Positions 3,011 to 13,701 of a stretch of 64,000 bases of DNA are shown here, piece by piece. Both the position numbers and the translations under genes were made by a program. The stretch lies in IMG/VR virus record IMGVR_UViG_3300011934_000017, positions 156,238-220,237 of that record; one strand, given 5' to 3'. The stretch's first letter is position 1. Every line of letters begins with the position of its first letter. The notes below the pieces were generated by a model. The model saw only the letters and a list, made by a program, of their open reading frames with translations. It was not told the DNA's origin and did no database searches. The DNA comes from a virus.

Positions 3011-3048
3011 GACACAAAAAAGGCCGCATTTGCGGCCTTTTTTGTGTC
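3011..3048. terminator. Bidirectional intrinsic terminator
   Basis: A perfect 18-base inverted repeat (3011-3028 and 3031-3048) has a GC core GGCCGCA around a 2-base loop and runs of A and T on the two sides. It sits between convergent genes, ending primase on the plus strand and the 4850-3070 operon on the minus strand. Confidence 0.93.
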
Positions 3049-3069
3049 TATGGTAAATGCTTAGAAGAT

Positions 3070-3672
3070 TTATTCGTCTTCCATTACATCCATAGCTTCG
3101 ACACACCATGCTTTCAGCTCGGCACTGGATGTGTTATCCATGAGGTACTGGACGTCTTTTGCGTTCATTGTATCAAGCTTAGTCTCAAGCTCTACAATCA
3201 AGTCCTCAACGCCTTCTTCTGAAGCGCGTAGCAGAATGTTTTGTACAAACTGGCTAACGTCATCTTTGGCTTTCGGAGGCTCTGCGTTAACGCTTTCTTC
3301 GACAGGTGCTTGGAAGCTCAGGTCGTTGTCTTCTTGCAGAACGTCGAAGATGCGGTCGTATTCTTTCTGGGCACGAGGATCTTGTAGAAATTCCTCTGCG
3401 CTTTCGCTGCTAACGATATGTACGAAACCGCGAGCAACCAAACGACGGAAGTTAGGGTTGCGAAGAACGTCTTCTTTGGTAGCAAAGGTAGATAGATCGA
3501 CCGGAATGAAAGTAACCGGTACCTGTACAGAAATTTTCTGTTGACCAGAATCTACCACAACAAAGTTTACGTTGCCGCGCGGATTGCTTTTGTTCAGCAC
3601 GTAAATTTGTGAAGAGTCAGACTTTTCAGCCTGTGCTACGTTTTGACGATCCATTTTTACTTTAATAGGCAT
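3070..3672 (-). CDS. Hypothetical protein, possibly structural
   Basis: 200 residues. The start is the ATG at 3672 (MPIKVKMDRQ), preceded by GAGGAGA at ideal spacing. A TTG 18 bases upstream is less likely. The N-terminal half is rich in beta-prone stretches (VNFVVVDSG, KISVQVPVTFIPVD). The C-terminal half is acidic and helical, ending in EDE. It is the last gene of the minus-strand operon that starts with the RuvC-like resolvase and stops 22 bases before the shared terminator. No motif I can name is present. The beta-rich start and acidic tail suggest an oligomerising or virion-associated protein, but that is a guess. Confidence 0.7.
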   Translation of the reverse strand: MPIKVKMDRQNVAQAEKSDSSQIYVLNKSNPRGNVNFVVVDSGQQKISVQVPVTFIPVDLSTFATKEDVLRNPNFRRLVARGFVHIVSSESAEEFLQDPRAQKEYDRIFDVLQEDNDLSFQAPVEESVNAEPPKAKDDVSQFVQNILLRASEEGVEDLIVELETKLDTMNAKDVQYLMDNTSSAELKAWCVEAMDVMEDE

Positions 3673-3682
3673 TATTGTCTCC

Positions 3683-4237
3683 TCAGACAACGTTATTGAA
3701 AAGGGTGTTTCCAGAGTCCAGAATCTTCAAAGCTTTTTGTGCAGCTAGAAAATCCTTATTGCTAAGTTGAAGGGCGTCTTTGAGTTTGAATTTGGCTCCT
3801 ACTATTGAGGTTGTAAGGCTTTCATCAAATATCAGAGTAAGCATCCAAGTTTCGAAATGAAGCTTTTTCAGAGTCAAAGGTTCAGAGGTTATCAGGTCGT
3901 CGATTATATTGGATTTGCCTTCTACATAATTGAAACCATCTGTCTCTGTTTTTGTTTCAGTCAGAACAGAAATAATCCGCTGTAACATAATCAAATGTTT
4001 AACCTGCTCAACAGCCCTTTTTCTCAGTTTAGTAACGTCTTTTACCGAAAGCTCCTTGTGCGGAAACTTGTAGTGTAAGAGTTCATGGTCCGAAAAAGGC
4101 TTGTCTTCAGAACTAAACGTTATGTCTAGCCCTAAACAGTTATTCCGTGTTCGTGTTGAGTGGAACTTGCACGTAGTAACGCAACACTTGGTCTTAAACT
4201 TGTAACCTGAATGCAAAGGGCACGTCTTTATTTCCAT
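3683..4237 (-). CDS. Cys-rich hypothetical protein
   Basis: 184 residues with GGAGG just before the ATG. The first 35 residues carry six Cys and two His (CPLHSGYKF, CCVTTCKFH, NNC), a pattern that could bind one or two zinc ions. The rest is helical and charged, without a known fold that I recognise. It follows its own TGTAAATA element, which overlaps the stop codon of the RuvC-like gene upstream, and precedes the 3070-3672 gene closely. Context suggests a role in DNA metabolism, but this is not shown. Confidence 0.7.
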   Translation of the reverse strand: MEIKTCPLHSGYKFKTKCCVTTCKFHSTRTRNNCLGLDITFSSEDKPFSDHELLHYKFPHKELSVKDVTKLRKRAVEQVKHLIMLQRIISVLTETKTETDGFNYVEGKSNIIDDLITSEPLTLKKLHFETWMLTLIFDESLTTSIVGAKFKLKDALQLSNKDFLAAQKALKILDSGNTLFNNVV

Positions 4238-4262
4238 GAAACCTCCAGTCCGCGTAGTAGTG

Positions 4263-4270
4263 TATTTACA
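4263..4270 (-). promoter_or_regulatory. TGTAAATA promoter element, minus strand
   Basis: TGTAAATACACTACTACG lies 25 bases before the ATG at 4237. The TAA inside the element (4266-4268) is also the stop codon of the RuvC-like gene, so the promoter sits at the operon joint. Confidence 0.5.
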
Positions 4271-4850
4271 ACTTTGGACTAGATTCGAAGTGGTTTAGGA
4301 AAGAGTTTAGTCTGTTAGGTCCTTCCAAACATTCAAATGGTTCTAAGTCAAAATGCTTGCAAGCATGATAGATTCCCATAAGCGAACAGTCCAGTTCGTG
4401 CACCGTTTTTCTTTCAGCTTTTGGCAGAGGTTTTACCAGCTCTTTGAGTTCATCGTAAAGCTCATTCAGAGGTTTAACGTCTTCCTCTTTGAACCTTCGG
4501 TTGAAGCTGTTCTTCCAGGTCGATGCGGTGTACAGATGGAGTTGCGGGTACAAAGTCACAAGAATACCGAGCATCATGTTGATGGACTCTATGGTAATTC
4601 CTTTGAGACCTCTTGATTGAAAGCGTTCAGCAACAACCAAATCAAAAGGACCGAACTCGCTTTCCAGACTAAGAATTTCTGCCATGAAGCTGCGATACTC
4701 GTTACGAATCGTAGCAGGGTTTTTAATCGTGTCGTAAACAAGCTTGGTTCCCATAACGCGAATTTTTAAGCGGGAGCTTGATGCGAGTTTAATAACGGAT
4801 GCGGCGTAGTTTGTGGTGCCGGGGTCCATTGAGAGTACAGTTATTGTCAT
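4266..4850 (-). CDS. RuvC-like Holliday junction resolvase
   Basis: 194 residues starting at the ATG at 4850 (MTITVLSMDPGTTNYA). GGAGGG lies seven bases upstream, and the in-frame start further upstream lacks a ribosome site. The RNase H-fold active site is readable: Asp9 in MDPGTTN, Glu75 in VVAERFQSRG, and Asp154 in HELDCSLMGIYHA, the order and spacing of RuvC and its phage and poxvirus relatives. It would cut branched recombination or replication intermediates before packaging. It heads a minus-strand operon, is divergent from the 4936 gene, and is close to the RecB-like nuclease and primase. Confidence 0.82.
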   Translation of the reverse strand: MTITVLSMDPGTTNYAASVIKLASSSRLKIRVMGTKLVYDTIKNPATIRNEYRSFMAEILSLESEFGPFDLVVAERFQSRGLKGITIESINMMLGILVTLYPQLHLYTASTWKNSFNRRFKEEDVKPLNELYDELKELVKPLPKAERKTVHELDCSLMGIYHACKHFDLEPFECLEGPNRLNSFLNHFESSPKL

Positions 4851-4935: not shown

Positions 4936-6090
4936 ATGGCTAGAATACGCAGAGGTACGGGAGGCAAGCTCCGTAAAAATGCAAAGAACTTTACGCACAA
5001 ACAAGCGCAAGCACGTTTGCAAGAAACGGTAGCACCCTTTAACAAACAGGTAGATAACTCGCTACGAGTAAATGCTGTAGAGATTGATTATTACCAGACA
5101 CAAAACAAAATAGGCAGACCATGTACTTGCGACAAGATACAAATATATGATGAACAAAAGACGCGAGACGGTGGCAGCAATTCAAATCATATAGAACCAG
5201 TTGTACCTACCGTAGACGAAGACAGTAGCTCAAGATTAGATATTGAGCTTCAGGACGACAATCTGTTTGGTGATGGGCCTGCTGAAAAGCTGTACGGTGA
5301 AAACGTATATGATGTTAGTGGTTCCGACAATCTGAAAGACGACGATATTCCTGACGAAATATATCGAAACATGTTGGCAGGCGAAGGCGACGTAGCCATG
5401 TCTGAAACCTCCATGTTCGGTTCAAATGCTAACTGTGGAATATGCTATCGTGTAGGTTTCCAGCCGGGGTACAAGTCATACGGCAAACAGCGTACATTGT
5501 TGACCACGTGGGACATTAAAGACATAAGCAGTTATAATGTTGTCACGACCGAGACACCTAATAAGATGCGGCGTCAAGGCCCCAAAACAGACTACACGTT
5601 TGTTGAGTTCACCTTGTTCGTTCCGAAGTATTTCAAGTCTTGTATTTTCAGCATTCGAAACAACACACAGATTCTACAAGGTGAGCGGATTCGAGCGTTT
5701 AACCAACCGCTGACTTTGAAAACGTTGAAAGACAATGCAGGCAAAGAAATTGTGGTTCGAGTGGATGCGTTGGAGTTCACGCATATTGTTGTCGAGTTTG
5801 ATCTAGGTGTTCAAAAGACATATGCCAATCTAGGACCAGAAAGCCAAGCGCTTGACTATTCCAAGATGGATGCGCTTTCAAACTTTCCTTTAGTTCTTCC
5901 TCCTTCTATTCACGAGGTCAATACAGGTGATGTTATAGTCATCAAAGACCGAAAACTGGTACTAAAAATCATAGACCTGGAGAGAAAGATAACAGCAGAT
6001 AAGAGGCAATTAGAATGGACAGTTCAAACTCGACTAATCCAAAAAACAGAACCCTTGAGAGACATTGCGAAGGGCATGAAGATTCTGTAG
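4936..6090 (+). CDS. Hypothetical virion-type protein
   Basis: 384 residues. The start is the ATG at 4936 (MARIRRGTGGKLRKN), with AGGAGA five bases upstream. Upstream in-frame codons lack a ribosome site and would run into the divergent gene. The N-terminus is very basic, the middle (about residues 90-150) acidic. Two small cysteine groups occur (PCTCDK and NCGICYRVGFQPGYKSYG). The C-terminal half is beta-rich, with alternating hydrophobic stretches. It overlaps the protease gene by 76 bases. I cannot name a family. The layout (basic tail, flexible acidic linker, beta domain) would fit a tail or baseplate part. Confidence 0.75.
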   Translation: MARIRRGTGGKLRKNAKNFTHKQAQARLQETVAPFNKQVDNSLRVNAVEIDYYQTQNKIGRPCTCDKIQIYDEQKTRDGGSNSNHIEPVVPTVDEDSSSRLDIELQDDNLFGDGPAEKLYGENVYDVSGSDNLKDDDIPDEIYRNMLAGEGDVAMSETSMFGSNANCGICYRVGFQPGYKSYGKQRTLLTTWDIKDISSYNVVTTETPNKMRRQGPKTDYTFVEFTLFVPKYFKSCIFSIRNNTQILQGERIRAFNQPLTLKTLKDNAGKEIVVRVDALEFTHIVVEFDLGVQKTYANLGPESQALDYSKMDALSNFPLVLPPSIHEVNTGDVIVIKDRKLVLKIIDLERKITADKRQLEWTVQTRLIQKTEPLRDIAKGMKIL

Positions 6091-7505
6091 GAAGAAAGAA
6101 TTACATTGTCACCGTAAAAAGAAATGTCGTCAAAGAAGACGTGCTGGATGAATTACAGCGCCCAGAATGCGGATGCGTCCATCGAAGCGTCGAAGTAACC
6201 GACTTCCAATCGTTGAGCAGAAGGAATTTCACAGTAGCTTTGACTGTGGAAGAGCGGGATATCCTGAGAGAAAGCGACAATGTGGTTGATGTTGTTTTGG
6301 AAGAAGGCTTCAATAGAATGAAGCCTGTGCTTGAAGAGCAACTGATTAATCCTGCTTTTGAGAATAGCGCTTCAAGCACCCACGACAACTGGGCTCTGGA
6401 TCATTGTGCGTTTCGAAACGGATACAAGTACATTTACTCGCACACCGGAAAGAACGTAGACATAATCTTCATTGACTCAGGTGTGGACCCTAATCACTCT
6501 GAGTTCGAACAGAACGGTGTATCCAGAGTCCGCGTTATTGAATGGGAAGCTGGACAGTTCAGCACTAAGCCAGATCAATACGTAGACACGGAGGGTCATG
6601 GGACTGGTGTGTCTAGCTGTGGTGTAGGCAAAAGACAAGGCTTCGCAAAAGACAGTGACATATATAGCATAAAGATTTTTGATAATGATGCCTACAGCCC
6701 GTTAAAAGCGTTGCAGCTTGCGCGTACTTGGCACAATCAAAAGACGAACGGTCGTCCTACCATAGTGAACAATAGCTGGGGATATTCAGCGGAGTATCCA
6801 CCTGGGCATCCTAAAGCAGGACAAAAGCATCCTGTTCAAGTAGCTGTGATAGATGCTGAAATCGAATCCATGATAGACGCGGGCATTATAGTAGTAAGCG
6901 CAGCAGGAAATGAAAATCACCACGTAGCCGCAGAAGGCACTGCCGAATACGATGATTTTTACTACACAGACAGCAGCGGTAACTACACCGAAATTATGGA
7001 GGATGCTGCATACTTTGATAGGAACAATCGATACACGCCGGGCGGTTCTGCCGAGACGATATGCGTTGGTTCAATAGGTGAGTTCTATCCTACTTCCAGA
7101 TTCATAAGGTCATGGTTTTCTAATTTTGGAAGTAGGGTAGACATATTTGCTCCAGGACGTGTGATTCAGTGTGCTCAGTCCTTAACAACAAACGATCTAA
7201 AGAAAACCAATGGTACTTCTTTTTCTTCCGGCATTCTGAGCGGTATAATTGCGCTTTGGTTAGAGATAAACCCGACTGCGAATCAAATGGATGTTAGAAA
7301 ATGGCTGAGTAGGCATGCCTTTTCAAGCGAGGTCGTAGGCAGTTTAGAAGGTGCAGAAAATCAAACAGCCAGAGTATTGTTCAACGGTGTCAGAGCAGCT
7401 AAAGACACTCCTCATACAATACTGTTGAAGCAAGGTAATCAATGGTATCCAGTACAACATATAACCAGCAATAAACGAGCCGTATATGGCAGGAGAATTT
7501 CATGA
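6015..7505 (+). CDS. Subtilisin-like serine protease (S8 family)
   Basis: 496 residues with a complete subtilase catalytic set: Asp154 in IIFIDSGVDPNHSEF, His195 in EGHGTGVS, oxyanion Asn299 in SAAGNENH, and Ser402 in NGTSFSSGILSG. About 130 residues precede the catalytic domain and may be a propeptide or targeting part (contains RPECGCVHRSVEVTDF). No signal peptide is seen, so it probably acts in the infected cell or inside the virion. The start at 6015 overlaps the upstream gene by 76 bases, and GAGG lies nine bases before it. The gene ends in an ATGA overlap with the next gene. Possible roles are maturation of phage proteins or cleavage of host proteins; the substrate is unknown. Confidence 0.9.
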   Translation: MDSSNSTNPKNRTLERHCEGHEDSVGRKNYIVTVKRNVVKEDVLDELQRPECGCVHRSVEVTDFQSLSRRNFTVALTVEERDILRESDNVVDVVLEEGFNRMKPVLEEQLINPAFENSASSTHDNWALDHCAFRNGYKYIYSHTGKNVDIIFIDSGVDPNHSEFEQNGVSRVRVIEWEAGQFSTKPDQYVDTEGHGTGVSSCGVGKRQGFAKDSDIYSIKIFDNDAYSPLKALQLARTWHNQKTNGRPTIVNNSWGYSAEYPPGHPKAGQKHPVQVAVIDAEIESMIDAGIIVVSAAGNENHHVAAEGTAEYDDFYYTDSSGNYTEIMEDAAYFDRNNRYTPGGSAETICVGSIGEFYPTSRFIRSWFSNFGSRVDIFAPGRVIQCAQSLTTNDLKKTNGTSFSSGILSGIIALWLEINPTANQMDVRKWLSRHAFSSEVVGSLEGAENQTARVLFNGVRAAKDTPHTILLKQGNQWYPVQHITSNKRAVYGRRIS

Positions 7506-9172: not shown

Positions 9173-10648
9173 ATGGGAAAACAGTTACCCGAAGAGCTAA
9201 GGTATCAGCTTCTTGTTTTCGACTATAAGAAAGCTAACAAGGCACGCAAGCTCTGGAAAAAACGTAAAGGAGATAAGGATAAAGAAGCCCATAAAAAGTT
9301 TTGCTATGGATTAGGAGCAAAGCTAGACGTTTCTCCGAAAGTAGTTAGCTTCATCGTCAAAAACAATAAATGGGCAGATCAAAAGCCCGCAGAGCATGTA
9401 AAATCATTACCAACAGGCCTTCAAGAATACGATAAACCTTCTTTGAAGCCTGAAGCCTTAGTCAGAGGAAGAGAATTATACATATCTCCTAAAAACTGGC
9501 GCAGGCTCAACGAGCATTACACCAAAGGAAAAATAAAGAAAGCTATTGTTCGCGCTGTTAGAAAGCTAGATTTACCTGCACCTGTTCAACCTATAAGCCA
9601 AGAGCAAGCAGATGATAGCTTTCGAGCACTGAAAAAGTTGCGTTCTGACAGCATGATAAAACGTATGCCTACCTGCACACGGTGGGATTATAAATACGGT
9701 ATTTCCGACGTTGTTATTGACGCACCTCGAACAGGAAACGAATGCTCAAACTTTTATCATCAGGAGTCACGTTGGTGGTGCGACTATCAGAGTATTCCGT
9801 CACCGATGAAAGTATGGAATTCTGATCTTCACATGTATTCCATGATGAATGCTTTATGGACGTTGAAGTTTAAGAAGATTACAGGACCAGAGCTTCGCAC
9901 AGCTATAAGTGTCCGTAAATATGTGGCTAGTCAGTTTAAACCTTCTGCCGCCAAAGCGTTTTACGAGCTATTTGACTGCAAGCACGTTTACGATCCTTCC
10001 AGTGGCTGGGGAGACCGTCTAGCAGGCTTCATGGCAGCTAAATGCACCAAGTCCTATTGCTCTACGGATCCCAACAGCAGACTGTACGACGACTATGAAT
10101 TGCAGAAAAATCGGTACGGTGGAAAGAAAGAAATAAACATGTACTGTCACGGTAGTGAAATCAAAGGTGGTGTTCGCAAGATGTACGGACACAGAGTTGA
10201 TACTGTCTTTACTTCGCCTCCTTATTTCAATGCCGAACGCTACAGCGAAGACGAAGGCCAAAGCTTTAGGCAGTTTGATGAAATAAGTGCGTGGCGTGAA
10301 AATTTCCTGTTTCCTTCTTTGAAAAATGCGTGGAATGCTTTGACTTCAGAAGGTGAACGCGGTGGCATTCTAGCAATCAATATTTCGGACATATACAACT
10401 CTTCGGATAAAACTCGCGGTGAGATATGCGACCCTATGAACGATTACATATCTTCGCTGAAAGGTGCTCGATACATCGGTTGTATTGGTTTGCGTCTAGC
10501 TAAACGTCCTGAGAGCGGTGCACTTGAAGGTAAACAAGGTGCAAGTATCGAACCTATCTGGGTCTGGGCTAAAGGTGGCTCTTGGGAGCTAGACGATTAT
10601 ATAGATAACGGATTTAAGACTAAGAAAGTAAAAGGTCTTTGGGGATAA
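9173..10648 (+). CDS. DNA methyltransferase with N-terminal extension
   Basis: 491 residues. The start at 9173 has GGAG seven bases upstream. A SAM-binding motif I (VYDPSSGWGDRLAGF, from residue 273) is followed by the catalytic motif IV TSPPYF (residues 347-352), as in amino-methyltransferases that act on N6-adenine or N4-cytosine. About 270 residues precede motif I. The first 130 are Lys/Arg-rich and probably bind DNA; a Cys/Trp-rich stretch (NECSNFYHQESRWWCDYQ) comes next. No restriction enzyme is nearby, so this is not a restriction-modification pair. It leads an operon with a thymidylate-synthase fold, a PLP enzyme and a PP-loop ATPase, which suggests it takes part in, or transfers a group in, a larger DNA modification path. 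Confidence 0.87.
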   Translation: MGKQLPEELRYQLLVFDYKKANKARKLWKKRKGDKDKEAHKKFCYGLGAKLDVSPKVVSFIVKNNKWADQKPAEHVKSLPTGLQEYDKPSLKPEALVRGRELYISPKNWRRLNEHYTKGKIKKAIVRAVRKLDLPAPVQPISQEQADDSFRALKKLRSDSMIKRMPTCTRWDYKYGISDVVIDAPRTGNECSNFYHQESRWWCDYQSIPSPMKVWNSDLHMYSMMNALWTLKFKKITGPELRTAISVRKYVASQFKPSAAKAFYELFDCKHVYDPSSGWGDRLAGFMAAKCTKSYCSTDPNSRLYDDYELQKNRYGGKKEINMYCHGSEIKGGVRKMYGHRVDTVFTSPPYFNAERYSEDEGQSFRQFDEISAWRENFLFPSLKNAWNALTSEGERGGILAINISDIYNSSDKTRGEICDPMNDYISSLKGARYIGCIGLRLAKRPESGALEGKQGASIEPIWVWAKGGSWELDDYIDNGFKTKKVKGLWG

Positions 10649-10649
10649 T

Positions 10650-11360
10650 ATGGCACATATCATTGAAGCAAACAGTATCGACAGTCTTTGGTATCGTACT
10701 ATGAATACCTTACTGACTGAAGGCGATAAGATTAGCGGTATTCAAGAAATTCCTAATCTGATCTTGGTTCTTAAAAAGAATTTTCGATCCTCTGAGTTTT
10801 TCGATAAAGAGTTTCGTCGTATTTTTGGAGACGAACGAATAGACTTTGCATCTTCTGTAACGTTTGTTCCTCCGAAAGAAGGCATGGTAAGTCCTTCATA
10901 CGAACAGAATGAGCCCAAAGCTAAGTGGACGAAAACTTACTGGGGTCGTATGATCAGTTTTGACGGAAGTGTTAATCAGATTGAGGAAGCAATCAAAAAG
11001 CTTTCTAAAGGTAAGAATACCAAGATGATTTCTATAGGTATTTATGCGCCTTCTTCCGATCATCGCAAAGTCATGGGTGGTGTGCCTTGTATGACTGCTA
11101 TCGATATAAAGCCTAGAAATGGAAAGATTGATCTATCTGTTTTCATGAGGTCTATGCGATTCTCTAAGTCGGGTTATGGAGACGTTCATGCCTTGTGTGA
11201 ACTAGGTAAATATATCTGTGAGCGCTCTAACATGGAAATGAACAGCCTCACCATGTTTGCGACCTCTGGACACACTTTTTACTCTGGTGAAGAGTTTACA
11301 AACTGTAAAGCTCTTATGGAATCAATGAAAGAACGCAAAGCAGAGAAGGTAAGAATATGA
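10650..11360 (+). CDS. Thymidylate synthase-fold protein, dCMP (hydroxy)methylase-like
   Basis: 236 residues, about the size of T4 dCMP hydroxymethylase (246) and a little shorter than ThyA (264). Visible landmarks are TYWGRM (like the ThyA YGxxxR region), GGVPCMTAIDI with the nucleophile Cys147, GKIDLSVFMRSMRF (like the QRSxD block, with Arg-Ser kept but the Asp replaced by Arg), SGYGDVHALCELG (Asp where ThyA has the Asn that selects dUMP), and a late SGHTFY like the GDxHxY block. An Asn-to-Asp change is the known switch to dCMP in hydroxymethylases. The gene begins two bases after the methyltransferase stop and overlaps the next gene. The substrate is inferred; the fold assignment is by motif order only. 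Confidence 0.7.
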   Translation: MAHIIEANSIDSLWYRTMNTLLTEGDKISGIQEIPNLILVLKKNFRSSEFFDKEFRRIFGDERIDFASSVTFVPPKEGMVSPSYEQNEPKAKWTKTYWGRMISFDGSVNQIEEAIKKLSKGKNTKMISIGIYAPSSDHRKVMGGVPCMTAIDIKPRNGKIDLSVFMRSMRFSKSGYGDVHALCELGKYICERSNMEMNSLTMFATSGHTFYSGEEFTNCKALMESMKERKAEKVRI

Positions 11361-12172
11361 AGCTCAGCCTTAATAATCCAGTTGAAACCCATCGTATTGG
11401 CAAATACGAAGTCTTTGTCAAGCGTGATGATATGATGGGTGATAATAAAATTCTTCCACCTTGGGGAAAGATGGACGCCATTGATAGTATTCTTCAAAGA
11501 ATGGATCTTAGCGTACCTCTTATACAACTGAATGTCTTTGGTTCTTGGAGTGGTTGGGCACTCGCACGTCTCGCTAAAAAGTATGATTGCGAAGTACATG
11601 TGGTTCATCCTAAGACGAAGAAAATCACTGACGACTATATAGGTGTGATGGAAGAAGCAGGTGCTATCATTCATCCTATTCGACATAATATGATGCGCGT
11701 TTTGTACGCTCAGACGAACAACAGGGCGAAAGAAGAAGGTATGAGAATGCTGCCGTATGCATTCAACACACCGAAATATCTAAACGCTATGGCAAGACGT
11801 TTACGCGCTACTTTAGAAGAGCTGGGTCCCATAGATAACTTGGTGGTAAGCTCTGGTAGTGGTGTGACTGTTACGGGACTGTCTAAACCTTTTCTTGATC
11901 TAAATCCTAAAGGTCAAGTCTACACTGTTTGCGTTTCGTCCGAAAATTCGATTCGTAAAACGTTTAACAGTCGTGAAGTCAGCACTGATCCTGTTCACAT
12001 TATCAAGTCACCGTATGAGTTTGGTGATACGATGCCTAAAGTTGAAGTTCCTTTCTCTTGTAATCAGTTTTGGGATAAGAAAGCTTGGCATTGGTTGACG
12101 GAGAACAAGAGCATTCTTAAAGGTAAGCGTACACTGTTCTGGAATCTAGGTGGTGAGTATACATTTTTGTGA
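11357..12172 (+). CDS. PLP-dependent fold-type II enzyme (ACC deaminase/D-Cys desulfhydrase-like)
   Basis: 271 residues, in an ATGA overlap with the gene before. The start contains VKRDDMMGDNKILP. It aligns by eye with the KRDD...GNK segment of ACC deaminase and D-cysteine desulfhydrase, making Lys31 the candidate PLP Schiff-base lysine. LIQLNVFGSWSGWALARLA follows as the substrate/PLP helix. VVSSGSGVTVTGL (165-177) is the Gly/Ser loop that holds the PLP phosphate. At 271 residues it is shorter than usual (about 330), missing mainly C-terminal parts. It could release ammonia or sulfide from an amino acid, or add an amino-acid-derived group. Placed between the synthase-fold and PP-loop genes, it probably supplies the group that is installed. 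Confidence 0.75.
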   Translation: MKLSLNNPVETHRIGKYEVFVKRDDMMGDNKILPPWGKMDAIDSILQRMDLSVPLIQLNVFGSWSGWALARLAKKYDCEVHVVHPKTKKITDDYIGVMEEAGAIIHPIRHNMMRVLYAQTNNRAKEEGMRMLPYAFNTPKYLNAMARRLRATLEELGPIDNLVVSSGSGVTVTGLSKPFLDLNPKGQVYTVCVSSENSIRKTFNSREVSTDPVHIIKSPYEFGDTMPKVEVPFSCNQFWDKKAWHWLTENKSILKGKRTLFWNLGGEYTFL

Positions 12173-12183
12173 GGATTGAATAA

Positions 12184-13026
12184 ATGGGCAAGCCGAAAGT
12201 TAAAGAATGTTTGATACGTAACCTGGAAAGATATGACGGACCTTTTGCTGTTCTTCTGTCGGGTGGTGCAGACAGTCACGCTAATCTTTTCGCATTACTT
12301 GAGATGGGCGCAGACGTACACGTATATAGCTGCACCTTAGAAGACAGGGAAAGCAGGGATTTTATTTGTGCTCGCAGGACTGCTGAAATCTTTGATCTAC
12401 CTTTCACACCTGTTATTTTACCTACAGACCTCGACCAGCTCCTTGTAGATATTCGAGAGAACATGAGTCTTATCGGAACAAAAGGCAAGGTAGAGGTAGA
12501 AGCTTTATGGGCGTTTCGTAAAGCCGTTGATATTATAACAGAACCTAGTATCGTCAGCGGTCTGTCAGCAGGTATGTATTTTTGTTTGACCAAGAAAGGC
12601 AGCATACACTACGCACATACAGGAAGAATCGACGAATATCGTAGAGAGACATTTAAAAGAGCCTCTAATCCTAATAATCAAGGGGCCAAGATGAAACGAT
12701 ATTCGAAAAGCGTTGGAAAGAAGTGGATAAATCCTTGGATAACCCGAGGAATGCTAAAGACGTTCTTAGGAACTACATGGGAAGATGTAAATAAACCACG
12801 ACAAAAAGAAGCGATCCGCGCAGACTTTGAAAAATACTTTGCAAAAACCAAAGTGTTTAATCAACGAGACATGCACAAAGGTGATAGCGGTATGTCTGAG
12901 CTATTCGCTAAATTGTTGGAAGACCCTAAGGTAAATGTTAGGAATCATAAATCTGTTGTTGGTATCTACAATATGATACGAGCAGAAGAGCTGGCCAGAG
13001 TAAATAAAGGCCCTGGCTTGTTCTAG
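12184..13026 (+). CDS. PP-loop ATPase, asparagine synthetase-like
   Basis: 280 residues with GAGGA before the start. AVLLSGGADSHANL (Ser26-Ser31) is the PP-loop SGGxDS signature that binds and cleaves ATP to AMP and PPi. The following DRESRDFICARRTAEIFDLPFTPVIL resembles the segment after the loop in asparagine synthetase C-terminal domains. No glutaminase domain is attached, so a separate ammonia or sulfur source would be needed; the PLP enzyme encoded just upstream could provide it. The likely role is adenylation of a carbonyl or carboxyl group followed by amide or thio-group formation. The target, a nucleotide or a DNA base, is inferred from the operon only. Confidence 0.8.
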   Translation: MGKPKVKECLIRNLERYDGPFAVLLSGGADSHANLFALLEMGADVHVYSCTLEDRESRDFICARRTAEIFDLPFTPVILPTDLDQLLVDIRENMSLIGTKGKVEVEALWAFRKAVDIITEPSIVSGLSAGMYFCLTKKGSIHYAHTGRIDEYRRETFKRASNPNNQGAKMKRYSKSVGKKWINPWITRGMLKTFLGTTWEDVNKPRQKEAIRADFEKYFAKTKVFNQRDMHKGDSGMSELFAKLLEDPKVNVRNHKSVVGIYNMIRAEELARVNKGPGLF

Positions 13027-13038
13027 TCGGAGAATGCA

Positions 13039-13701
13039 ATGCTTACTTTCCAACATTTAGATAAACTCACCATAAACGAATTTTTTGAAAGCGACTTGTT
13101 TTTTGAGTTGCACTCTCTGTCTGGTATGAGCATATTTAGCGGTAGTACGGAAACAGTAAAAGAGAAATTGCTAGATTCTGTACACAACCAACAAGAAAAG
13201 GTTTCACACAACCTCGTATGTTCGAATGGAAAACCTGTTGGTTTCTTTTCTTTGAAGACGCACAGTACCTACTTTTACTACGACACCTTTACAGATACAG
13301 TAGAAGACTTAGGTAATGCGGTAGAGTTTTCTAGTTGGTTTGTTTCTAGTAGCTATAAAAATCTAGTTTCTCCTACCGCCGCTATAATGAGAAAAAGCTT
13401 AGAAATGGCAAGTGACATTGGACGCATTGCTGTGTTTGGTGTGCGAGCACAGTATTACGAAGACGGTACTCCAATGTTTCTTTCTGCGAATAGAGATTGT
13501 TGGAGTCACGAACCGCGACCAGACTACAATATATCTAATGGGCCTAAAAACTTGTCTGTGACGCATCCTTCTTTTCATCCTGATTCTTTTGGTATTTTAA
13601 AAGCTGCTCACCTGTTTGGCTTTAATATGTTTGGTTTAGATGCTTACGACGGGAGTCCTAAATATCGCAAGTTTCTTTCTTCAATGAAATCTGTTGAATG
13701 A
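13039..13701 (+). CDS. Hypothetical protein, weakly GNAT-like
   Basis: 220 residues, 12 bases after the PP-loop gene with GGAG upstream of the ATG. SNGKPVGFFSLK followed by a beta-rich stretch, SSWFVSSSYKNLVS, and a helix (PTAAIMRKSLEMASDIG) recalls the order of strands in GCN5-type acyltransferases, but no clear acetyl-CoA loop (Q/RxxGxG/A) is present. It ends with Tyr/Pro/Gly-rich segments. Its position inside the cassette suggests a late tailoring step or a structural partner. I would not call it an acetyltransferase without a structure search. Confidence 0.7.
   Translation: MLTFQHLDKLTINEFFESDLFFELHSLSGMSIFSGSTETVKEKLLDSVHNQQEKVSHNLVCSNGKPVGFFSLKTHSTYFYYDTFTDTVEDLGNAVEFSSWFVSSSYKNLVSPTAAIMRKSLEMASDIGRIAVFGVRAQYYEDGTPMFLSANRDCWSHEPRPDYNISNGPKNLSVTHPSFHPDSFGILKAAHLFGFNMFGLDAYDGSPKYRKFLSSMKSVE

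Follow-up and report, generated by a model that had tools for sequence, protein, structure and literature searches.

Hypermodified bases are a main route by which phages evade restriction, and they are a source of enzymes that act on DNA. The Mom protein of phage Mu, for example, makes N6-carbamoylmethyladenine. M6 and the yuaviruses hypermodify thymidine (5-NedU), and Lee et al. 2021 reportedly found that M6-type enzymes dependent on pyridoxal 5'-phosphate (PLP) decarboxylate amino acids already joined to 5-hydroxymethyldeoxyuridine (5-hmdU) in DNA. A system from Synechococcus phage S-B43, published in Nat Commun in December 2025, acts on cytosine: CmoA produces carboxy-S-adenosylmethionine (carboxy-SAM), CmoX attaches a carboxymethyl group to C5 of cytosine in DNA, and CmoY, an asparagine-synthetase homolog, ligates glycine onto the resulting 5-carboxymethylcytosine in phage DNA, for which this is called the 5-glycylcarboxymethylcytosine (5cxmC) system (PMC12783734). 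A 5-hydroxy-deoxycytidine monophosphate (5-hydroxy-dCMP) synthase of the thymidylate-synthase (TS) superfamily has been described from arabinosyl-hydroxycytosine phages (PMC13390438). Here, we analyze a cassette of five genes at positions 9173-13701 of a 64,000-nucleotide stretch of viral DNA (‘the window’), which is the final 64 kb of the 220,237-bp IMG/VR virus record IMGVR_UViG_3300011934_000017. The source, at 220 kb, is a jumbo phage.

The cassette is best described as a new gene set. It has its amide ligase in common with the CmoA-CmoX-CmoY system, its PLP family in common with M6, and its TS fold in common with enzymes of cytosine nucleotides, and it is a member of neither pathway. No description of this set was found in the literature searched, which was mostly without subscription papers and was without preprints. 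We consider it fairly probable that the genes specify a phage DNA hypermodification that includes amide ligation; the target base is probably cytosine. The gene set is well supported, and the chemistry is what we infer from it. An elaborate, amide-decorated base of this kind could conceal the DNA of the phage from the defences of bacteria.

The cassette and its recurrence in phages

All five open reading frames (ORFs) lie on the plus strand, nearly without gaps and packed like an operon. A first-pass annotation, made from the sequence alone, had called them consecutive and tightly coupled, correctly, and the TSPPY, PC and SGGADS motifs that it picked out are all present. In order, they encode a methyltransferase-like protein (the ‘MTase’), a TS-fold protein, a PLP enzyme, an amide ligase and a probable acetyltransferase. 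The MTase begins at ATG 9173, with GGAG upstream; a longer form starting at TTG 9140 is unlikely. The start of the PLP ORF overlaps the stop of the TS-fold ORF by 4 bases, and purine-rich runs resembling ribosome sites precede several starts in the cassette. In profile searches of the record, the MTase, PLP enzyme and ligase each turned up once. Because the Pfam assignments are real but mostly weak, family alignments were built from related loci.

Single-protein scans of IMG/VR with the window's TS-fold and PLP proteins returned no relatives, their peptide patterns being too strict; alignment-based scans found them. Of the scans, the TS-seeded one is the least biased as a test, since its 72 loci were chosen by TS alignment alone (it uses two conserved peptides, and favors the window's TS subfamily). 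The ligase is present at 68 of these 72 loci (within 100 bp at 60 of them), the PLP enzyme at 64, the MTase at 57, and all four genes at 51; several of the exceptions are short contigs. CmoA and CmoX occur at none of the 72. Run against 84,980 species genomes of bacteria and archaea, the same query found no TS-fold relatives. The four-gene cassette (MTase, TS fold, PLP enzyme and ligase) is recurrent and apparently confined to phages; some 60 phage contigs carry it, a few of them as long as 220-375 kb. Some contigs are common to several scans (L060/L103/L105; L059/L104), and not all represent independent lineages. The neighborhood is thus clearly conserved, a check that the first-pass annotation had proposed, and its suggestion of one system for nucleotide or DNA hypermodification is still the best reading. 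The grouping is more than a chance one, as dozens of viral contigs have these families side by side.

The amide ligase and the PaBG locus

The fourth gene (12184..13026; 280 aa) encodes an ATP-dependent amide ligase resembling CmoY and asparagine synthetase, without a glutaminase domain (PF00733, E 3.2e-5; phrog_26038, E 5.4e-53). Its nearest relatives are in Erwinia jumbo phages, PaBG, Yersinia phage fHe-Yen9-02, Staphylococcus phage F1, and Synechococcus phages S-B05 and S-B43. Comparisons with these CmoY relatives give phmmer E-values of 1e-21 to 1e-48, and identities of 27.5% to the S-B05/S-B43 CmoY homologs and 39% to PaBG gp306. Judged by its sequence, the window protein is a CmoY homolog, a predicted amide ligase of the CmoY/AsnB type. 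It had been annotated as a PP-loop enzyme that amidates or thiolates. The first option holds; thiolation was rejected, as the matches to QueC and PAPS reductase are weaker than that to Asn_synthase, and the close relatives are CmoY-like.

In most of these relatives' genomes, a CmoA-like gene adjoins or neighbors the ligase homolog, and in PaBG, S-B05 and F1 a cytosine-C5 MTase gene is also nearby. Whole-record searches detected CmoA, and C5-MTases fitting the CmoX model, in seven of eight CmoY-bearing comparators; the C5-MTase of F1 matches that model weakly and lacks the CmoX arginine. In contrast, no CmoA was found in the 220-kb source record by tblastn, hidden Markov model (HMM) or whole-record search, no CmoX-like gene was found in it by whole-record search, and neither gene was found in whole-record searches of the 277-kb contig of L060 or the 134-kb contig of L046. 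The window's MTase carries the motif SPPY, and CmoX carries SPPC and Arg350. Membership in the CmoA-CmoX-CmoY system was rejected, its defining genes CmoA and CmoX being missing. What the two have in common is the ligase; where they differ, the window has an SPPY MTase, a TS-fold protein and a PLP enzyme, plus a GNAT protein. When loci from the differently seeded scans are pooled, a purely descriptive comparison, the ligase is accompanied by CmoA or by an SPPY MTase, and never by both.

PaBG is collinear with the window. Its CmoY (39% identity), peptidase (42%), clamp loader (53%), SbcC (39%) and gp299 (29%) have counterparts in the same order. PaBG gp308 fits the carboxy-SAM synthase model TIGR00740 (E 7.6e-38, under the curated cut-off), and gp309 bears the CmoX signature, SPPC with an arginine aligned to R350. 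Ahead of CmoY, PaBG has CmoX-CmoA-gp307, whereas the window has MTase-TS-PLP. This exchange at a syntenic place is the strongest hint, a positional one, that the MTase, TS-fold and PLP proteins take over the making of a handle for the ligase.

CmoY-bearing phages show some peculiarities of their own. In Erwinia and Yersinia jumbo phages (L002, L014, L017 and L018), the CmoX-like C5-MTases are ORFs of ~700 aa in which ~0.9-1.7 kb separates the two matched halves immediately past the SPPC region, indicating a large insert (a domain or an intein). In Salmonella phage Sen-NF (L015, 5869-7392), a CmoY-like ligase stands beside a 2-oxoglutarate-Fe(II) (2OG-Fe(II)) oxygenase, and no CmoA or CmoX was found in the record. 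The source record of the window also encodes a 2OG-Fe(II) oxygenase, just beyond the window's left edge (record positions 154805-155617, minus strand; PF13640, E 4.6e-14); it is related to the oxygenases that stand next to CmoY in Y3 and Sen-NF.

The thymidylate-synthase-fold protein

The second gene (10650..11360; 236 aa) encodes a divergent TS-fold protein predicted to modify C5 of dCMP. It matches PF00303 weakly (E 0.001) and TIGR03283 better (E 2.6e-21, under its cut-off); the latter, a methanogen model and the best NCBIfam match, also fits hydroxymethylase-type phage proteins and the M6 enzyme. The record encodes a canonical TS as well (PF00303, E 2.6e-70), together with a dCMP deaminase. 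Since a separate canonical TS is present, the divergent gene is unlikely to be a dTMP maker and would have some other job.

Six residues, the catalytic Cys147, Arg167, Ser168, Lys173, Asp178 and His208, are invariant in all 70 sequences of the family. Asp178 occupies the position of TS Asn177 in 70 of 70, and in TS the change of Asn177 to Asp moves specificity from uracil to cytosine nucleotides. The first-pass annotation's guess of cytosine as the likely target gains from this. At the position of TS Asp169, the family has Arg (63 of 70) or Ala (7 of 70); Asp is kept in four reference TS-fold proteins. Because this aspartate, retained by folate-using members, is lost, the protein looks unlike an ordinary hydroxymethylase.

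An AlphaFold model of the protein (predicted local distance difference test score, pLDDT, 79) retrieves with Foldseek, at the top, 9iqu and 9iqc, which are structures of a flavin-dependent dCMP hydroxylase from a phage and of its complex with flavin, followed by the CMP hydroxymethylase MilA. The match to 9iqu/9iqc has a template-modelling score of 0.66 and is also the top one by profile (E 2.5e-7), with an identity of only ~19%. PDB 1njc, a TS mutant of the Asn177 kind with dCMP, is among the Foldseek matches. Sequence-profile searches give the same picture: 9iqu, 9iqc and MilA match at about 3e-7, and thymidylate synthases from 0.0024 on. In the profile alignment, AfhB likewise lacks Asp at 169, and MilA keeps it. 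The cassette protein may resemble AfhB-type 5-hydroxy-dCMP synthases, its top structural match, in a TS fold without Asp169 and with the cysteine and a cytosine-type Asp kept; it differs in sequence, and in its neighbors, which are ligase, PLP and MTase genes here and sugar genes there. The sequence and the structure model favor a putative hydroxylation of dCMP, with hydroxymethylation or another electrophile as the alternative.

The PLP enzyme and its partners

The third gene (11357..12172; 271 aa) encodes a fold-type-II PLP enzyme (PF00291, E 5.8e-11; phrog_7093, E 3.3e-25) related to ACC deaminase, cysteine synthase and M6 gp52. The presumed Schiff-base lysine, Lys38, is invariant in the family. 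Kinship to M6 gp52 (phmmer E 1.9e-17), and a TIGR03283 model that fits both the cassette's TS-fold protein and the M6 enzyme, raise the question of a variant of the M6/ViI pathway, in which the TS-fold protein would make a 5-hydroxymethyl-pyrimidine, an unrecognized transferase would attach an amino acid, and the PLP enzyme would decarboxylate it in DNA. We regard this as very improbable. Neither ADDT (PF18724) nor the 5-hmdU kinase (PF18748) was detected in the source record, phmmer found no relatives of M6 gp51, gp53, gp54 or gp55, and the M6 TS keeps the Asp169 that the cassette protein has lost. Nor was a radical SAM relative detected here, and the window adds an amide ligase and an SPPY MTase. 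Membership in the M6 pathway was rejected, since ADDT and the 5-hmdU kinase define it; the fold-type-II PLP enzyme and a TS-superfamily protein are what the two have in common.

A maximum-likelihood tree also separates the two. PLP enzymes linked to an MTase, a TS fold or a D-2-hydroxyacid dehydrogenase (HADH) form one clade (100/99), apart from the M6-like enzymes. One member, L097, is labeled M6-like; its HADH call failed at a contig edge or threshold. PLP matches from 10 MTase-only loci (L121, L137 and others) had very long branches and were left out. Within the clade, TS-linked and HADH-linked enzymes are interleaved, the TS label requiring at least three changes on the tree, and for this reason the TS fold and the dehydrogenase look like alternative partners of a single PLP/ligase/MTase core.

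The scans show how these partners are distributed. The PLP-seeded scan of IMG/VR returned 77 loci, ~40 of them with PLP enzymes at 35-64% identity, most of which adjoin an SPPY MTase or an HADH gene (PF02826/PF00389). A full asparagine-synthetase-like protein is encoded as well at 15 of these ~40 loci, with a glutaminase domain in L040, the one tested. In the MTase-seeded scan, TS-AsnB-PLP-MTase appears at seven further loci and AsnB-HADH-PLP-MTase at one (L158). The core thus swaps its partner, TS fold for dehydrogenase, and a GNAT gene goes with the ligase where the PLP enzyme is missing, which points to a modular chemistry hitherto undescribed in DNA. The dehydrogenase of marine phages would fit an alternative PLP reaction, a deamination giving a 2-oxo acid that is then reduced.

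Several arrangements are recorded here as observations in their own right. The HADH gene lies directly beside the PLP gene at 33 of 41 marine phage loci (most of L026-L058; also L158), and a weakly glycosyltransferase-like gene (PF13524, E 0.04, under the cut-off) stands beside the pair at L031, L047 and L057. AsnB, GNAT and SPPY MTase genes are contiguous, without PLP, TS-fold or dehydrogenase genes, at 14 phage loci from the MTase-seeded scan (L126, L128, L139, L140, L144, L146, L148, L153, L159, L160, L162, L163, L165 and L166). At L096, the C5-MTase beside the PLP gene has GNAVPP and lacks the CmoX arginine. At L257 (6995-9127), TS-fold and asparagine-synthetase domains occur in one 710-aa ORF; as proof of a functional link this fusion was given little weight, the glutaminase MCG start being lost and a deletion or assembly error being possible.

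The SPPY transferase and the fifth gene

The first gene (9173..10648; 491 aa) encodes an SPPY-motif amino-methyltransferase-like protein (PF01555, E 0.0025, under the cut-off; phrog_12517, E 1.3e-8) of the class I fold, with motif I ahead of motif IV. SPPY is present in 77 of 78 relatives near a TS-fold gene, and Arg282, just past the glycine-rich loop, is invariant in the family. The structure model (pLDDT 78) matches only generic class I proteins, so it does not identify the group transferred. The family is widespread in phages, with at least ~600 relatives, and in many of them it may be a plain amino-methylase. From its motifs, the MTase is predicted to modify a base in DNA, as first annotated; that it merely methylates is the part of that annotation that perhaps does not hold. 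We suggest, tentatively and as the less likely case, that the SPPY protein is a transferase, rather than a methylase, of a carboxyl-bearing group to the DNA base. The group would be 3-amino-3-carboxypropyl if SAM is the donor, and carboxymethyl if the donor is host carboxy-SAM. The authors of the CmoX/CmoY study sought amino-group carboxymethyltransferases near CmoA and found none (PMC12783734); the cassette offers concrete candidates for such enzymes. If the suggestion is right, no earlier DNA system would have an enzyme of amino-methyltransferase fold that installs a carboxyl or amino-acid handle. The handle would be elaborated combinatorially by modules of the PLP, amide-ligase and GNAT kinds, and the base that bears it would have been altered beforehand by a TS-fold enzyme using a new electrophile.

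The fifth ORF (13039..13701; 220 aa) has no direct family match, and had been described as being of unknown fold. L060 has, in the corresponding position, a relative of it (28.7% identity over 150 aa, E 2.6e-15) that matches the GNAT acetyltransferase family (PF00583, E 1e-8, above the cut-off), and by this route the window's protein probably belongs to the GNAT acetyltransferases too. Mom can be likened to the cassette by description only: both would have a GNAT-related enzyme and an amide-bearing end-product base, but Mom is not known to work with a ligase, a PLP enzyme or a TS-fold protein.

A proposed pathway

The reactions might proceed as follows. The TS-fold cysteine would activate C5 of dCMP for the addition of an oxygen-bearing group, 5-hydroxy being likelier than 5-hydroxymethyl. 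The SPPY transferase, substituting for CmoA and CmoX, would put a SAM-derived, carboxyl-bearing group of either kind named above on the base in DNA. The PLP enzyme would rework the alpha-amino group, the CmoY-like ligase would adenylate the carboxylate and join it to an amine, and the GNAT protein would cap a free amine. The final base, bulky and less charged, would shield the phage DNA from nucleases. That every chemical step occurs in this order is quite unlikely.

A number of points weigh against a hypermodification that includes amide ligation. We know of no cultured phage with the cassette, and the record is linear in topology and perhaps incomplete. With CmoA and CmoX absent, the source of the carboxyl group is a guess. 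TS-fold and PLP genes are absent from the AsnB-GNAT-MTase loci, and therefore no single pathway covers all variants. Other points speak for a different explanation altogether: that the MTase is an ordinary DNA methylase acting on N4 of cytosine or N6 of adenine, and that the TS-fold, PLP, asparagine-synthetase and dehydrogenase genes are auxiliary metabolic genes tuning host pools of amino acids and nucleotides. The MTase family often occurs alone, with 45 of 80 MTase-seeded loci having no other cassette gene, and plain methylation may be all it does; in L188, a full-length AsnB scores above the curated cut-off for the asparagine synthase model TIGR01536; and a PLP enzyme with a D-2-hydroxyacid dehydrogenase is general amino-acid and 2-oxo-acid chemistry. 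We nevertheless hold such a metabolic role to be unlikely: the TS-fold, ligase, PLP and MTase genes are adjacent in dozens of phages, the window's ligase is CmoY-like and without glutaminase, the TS fold has lost Asp169, and the locus stands where syntenic PaBG has a gene pair of a type proven to modify DNA. DNA hypermodification with amide ligation remains our preferred reading.

Genomic setting

Homologs of clamp loader and SbcC adjoin the cassette in the window, and in other phages the cassettes are set among genes for ribonucleotide reductase, thioredoxin and family B DNA polymerase. Such a setting suits the modification of DNA or nucleotides. It bears on the possibility that the target of the cassette is not DNA but tRNA, a protein or a small molecule, which we consider remote. 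Chemistry of the CmoA type came to light first in tRNA (PMC12783734), and a PLP enzyme, a dehydrogenase and an amide ligase could jointly build a small molecule; but the cassette lies among genes of replication and nucleotide metabolism, its transferase bears the SPPY motif of DNA amino-methylases, and the CmoY relative that has been studied acts on DNA.

Megablast of the sequence against known phages gave no match. In L059, GIY-YIG-like sequence, recognized by eye, precedes the TS fold in the same ORF (3030-4484) and recurs after the PLP gene (6849-7175), which suggests homing endonucleases at that locus. Elsewhere in the window, at 6015-7505, is a putative subtilisin-like protease, judged by eye from its GHGTG and GTSFSS motifs.

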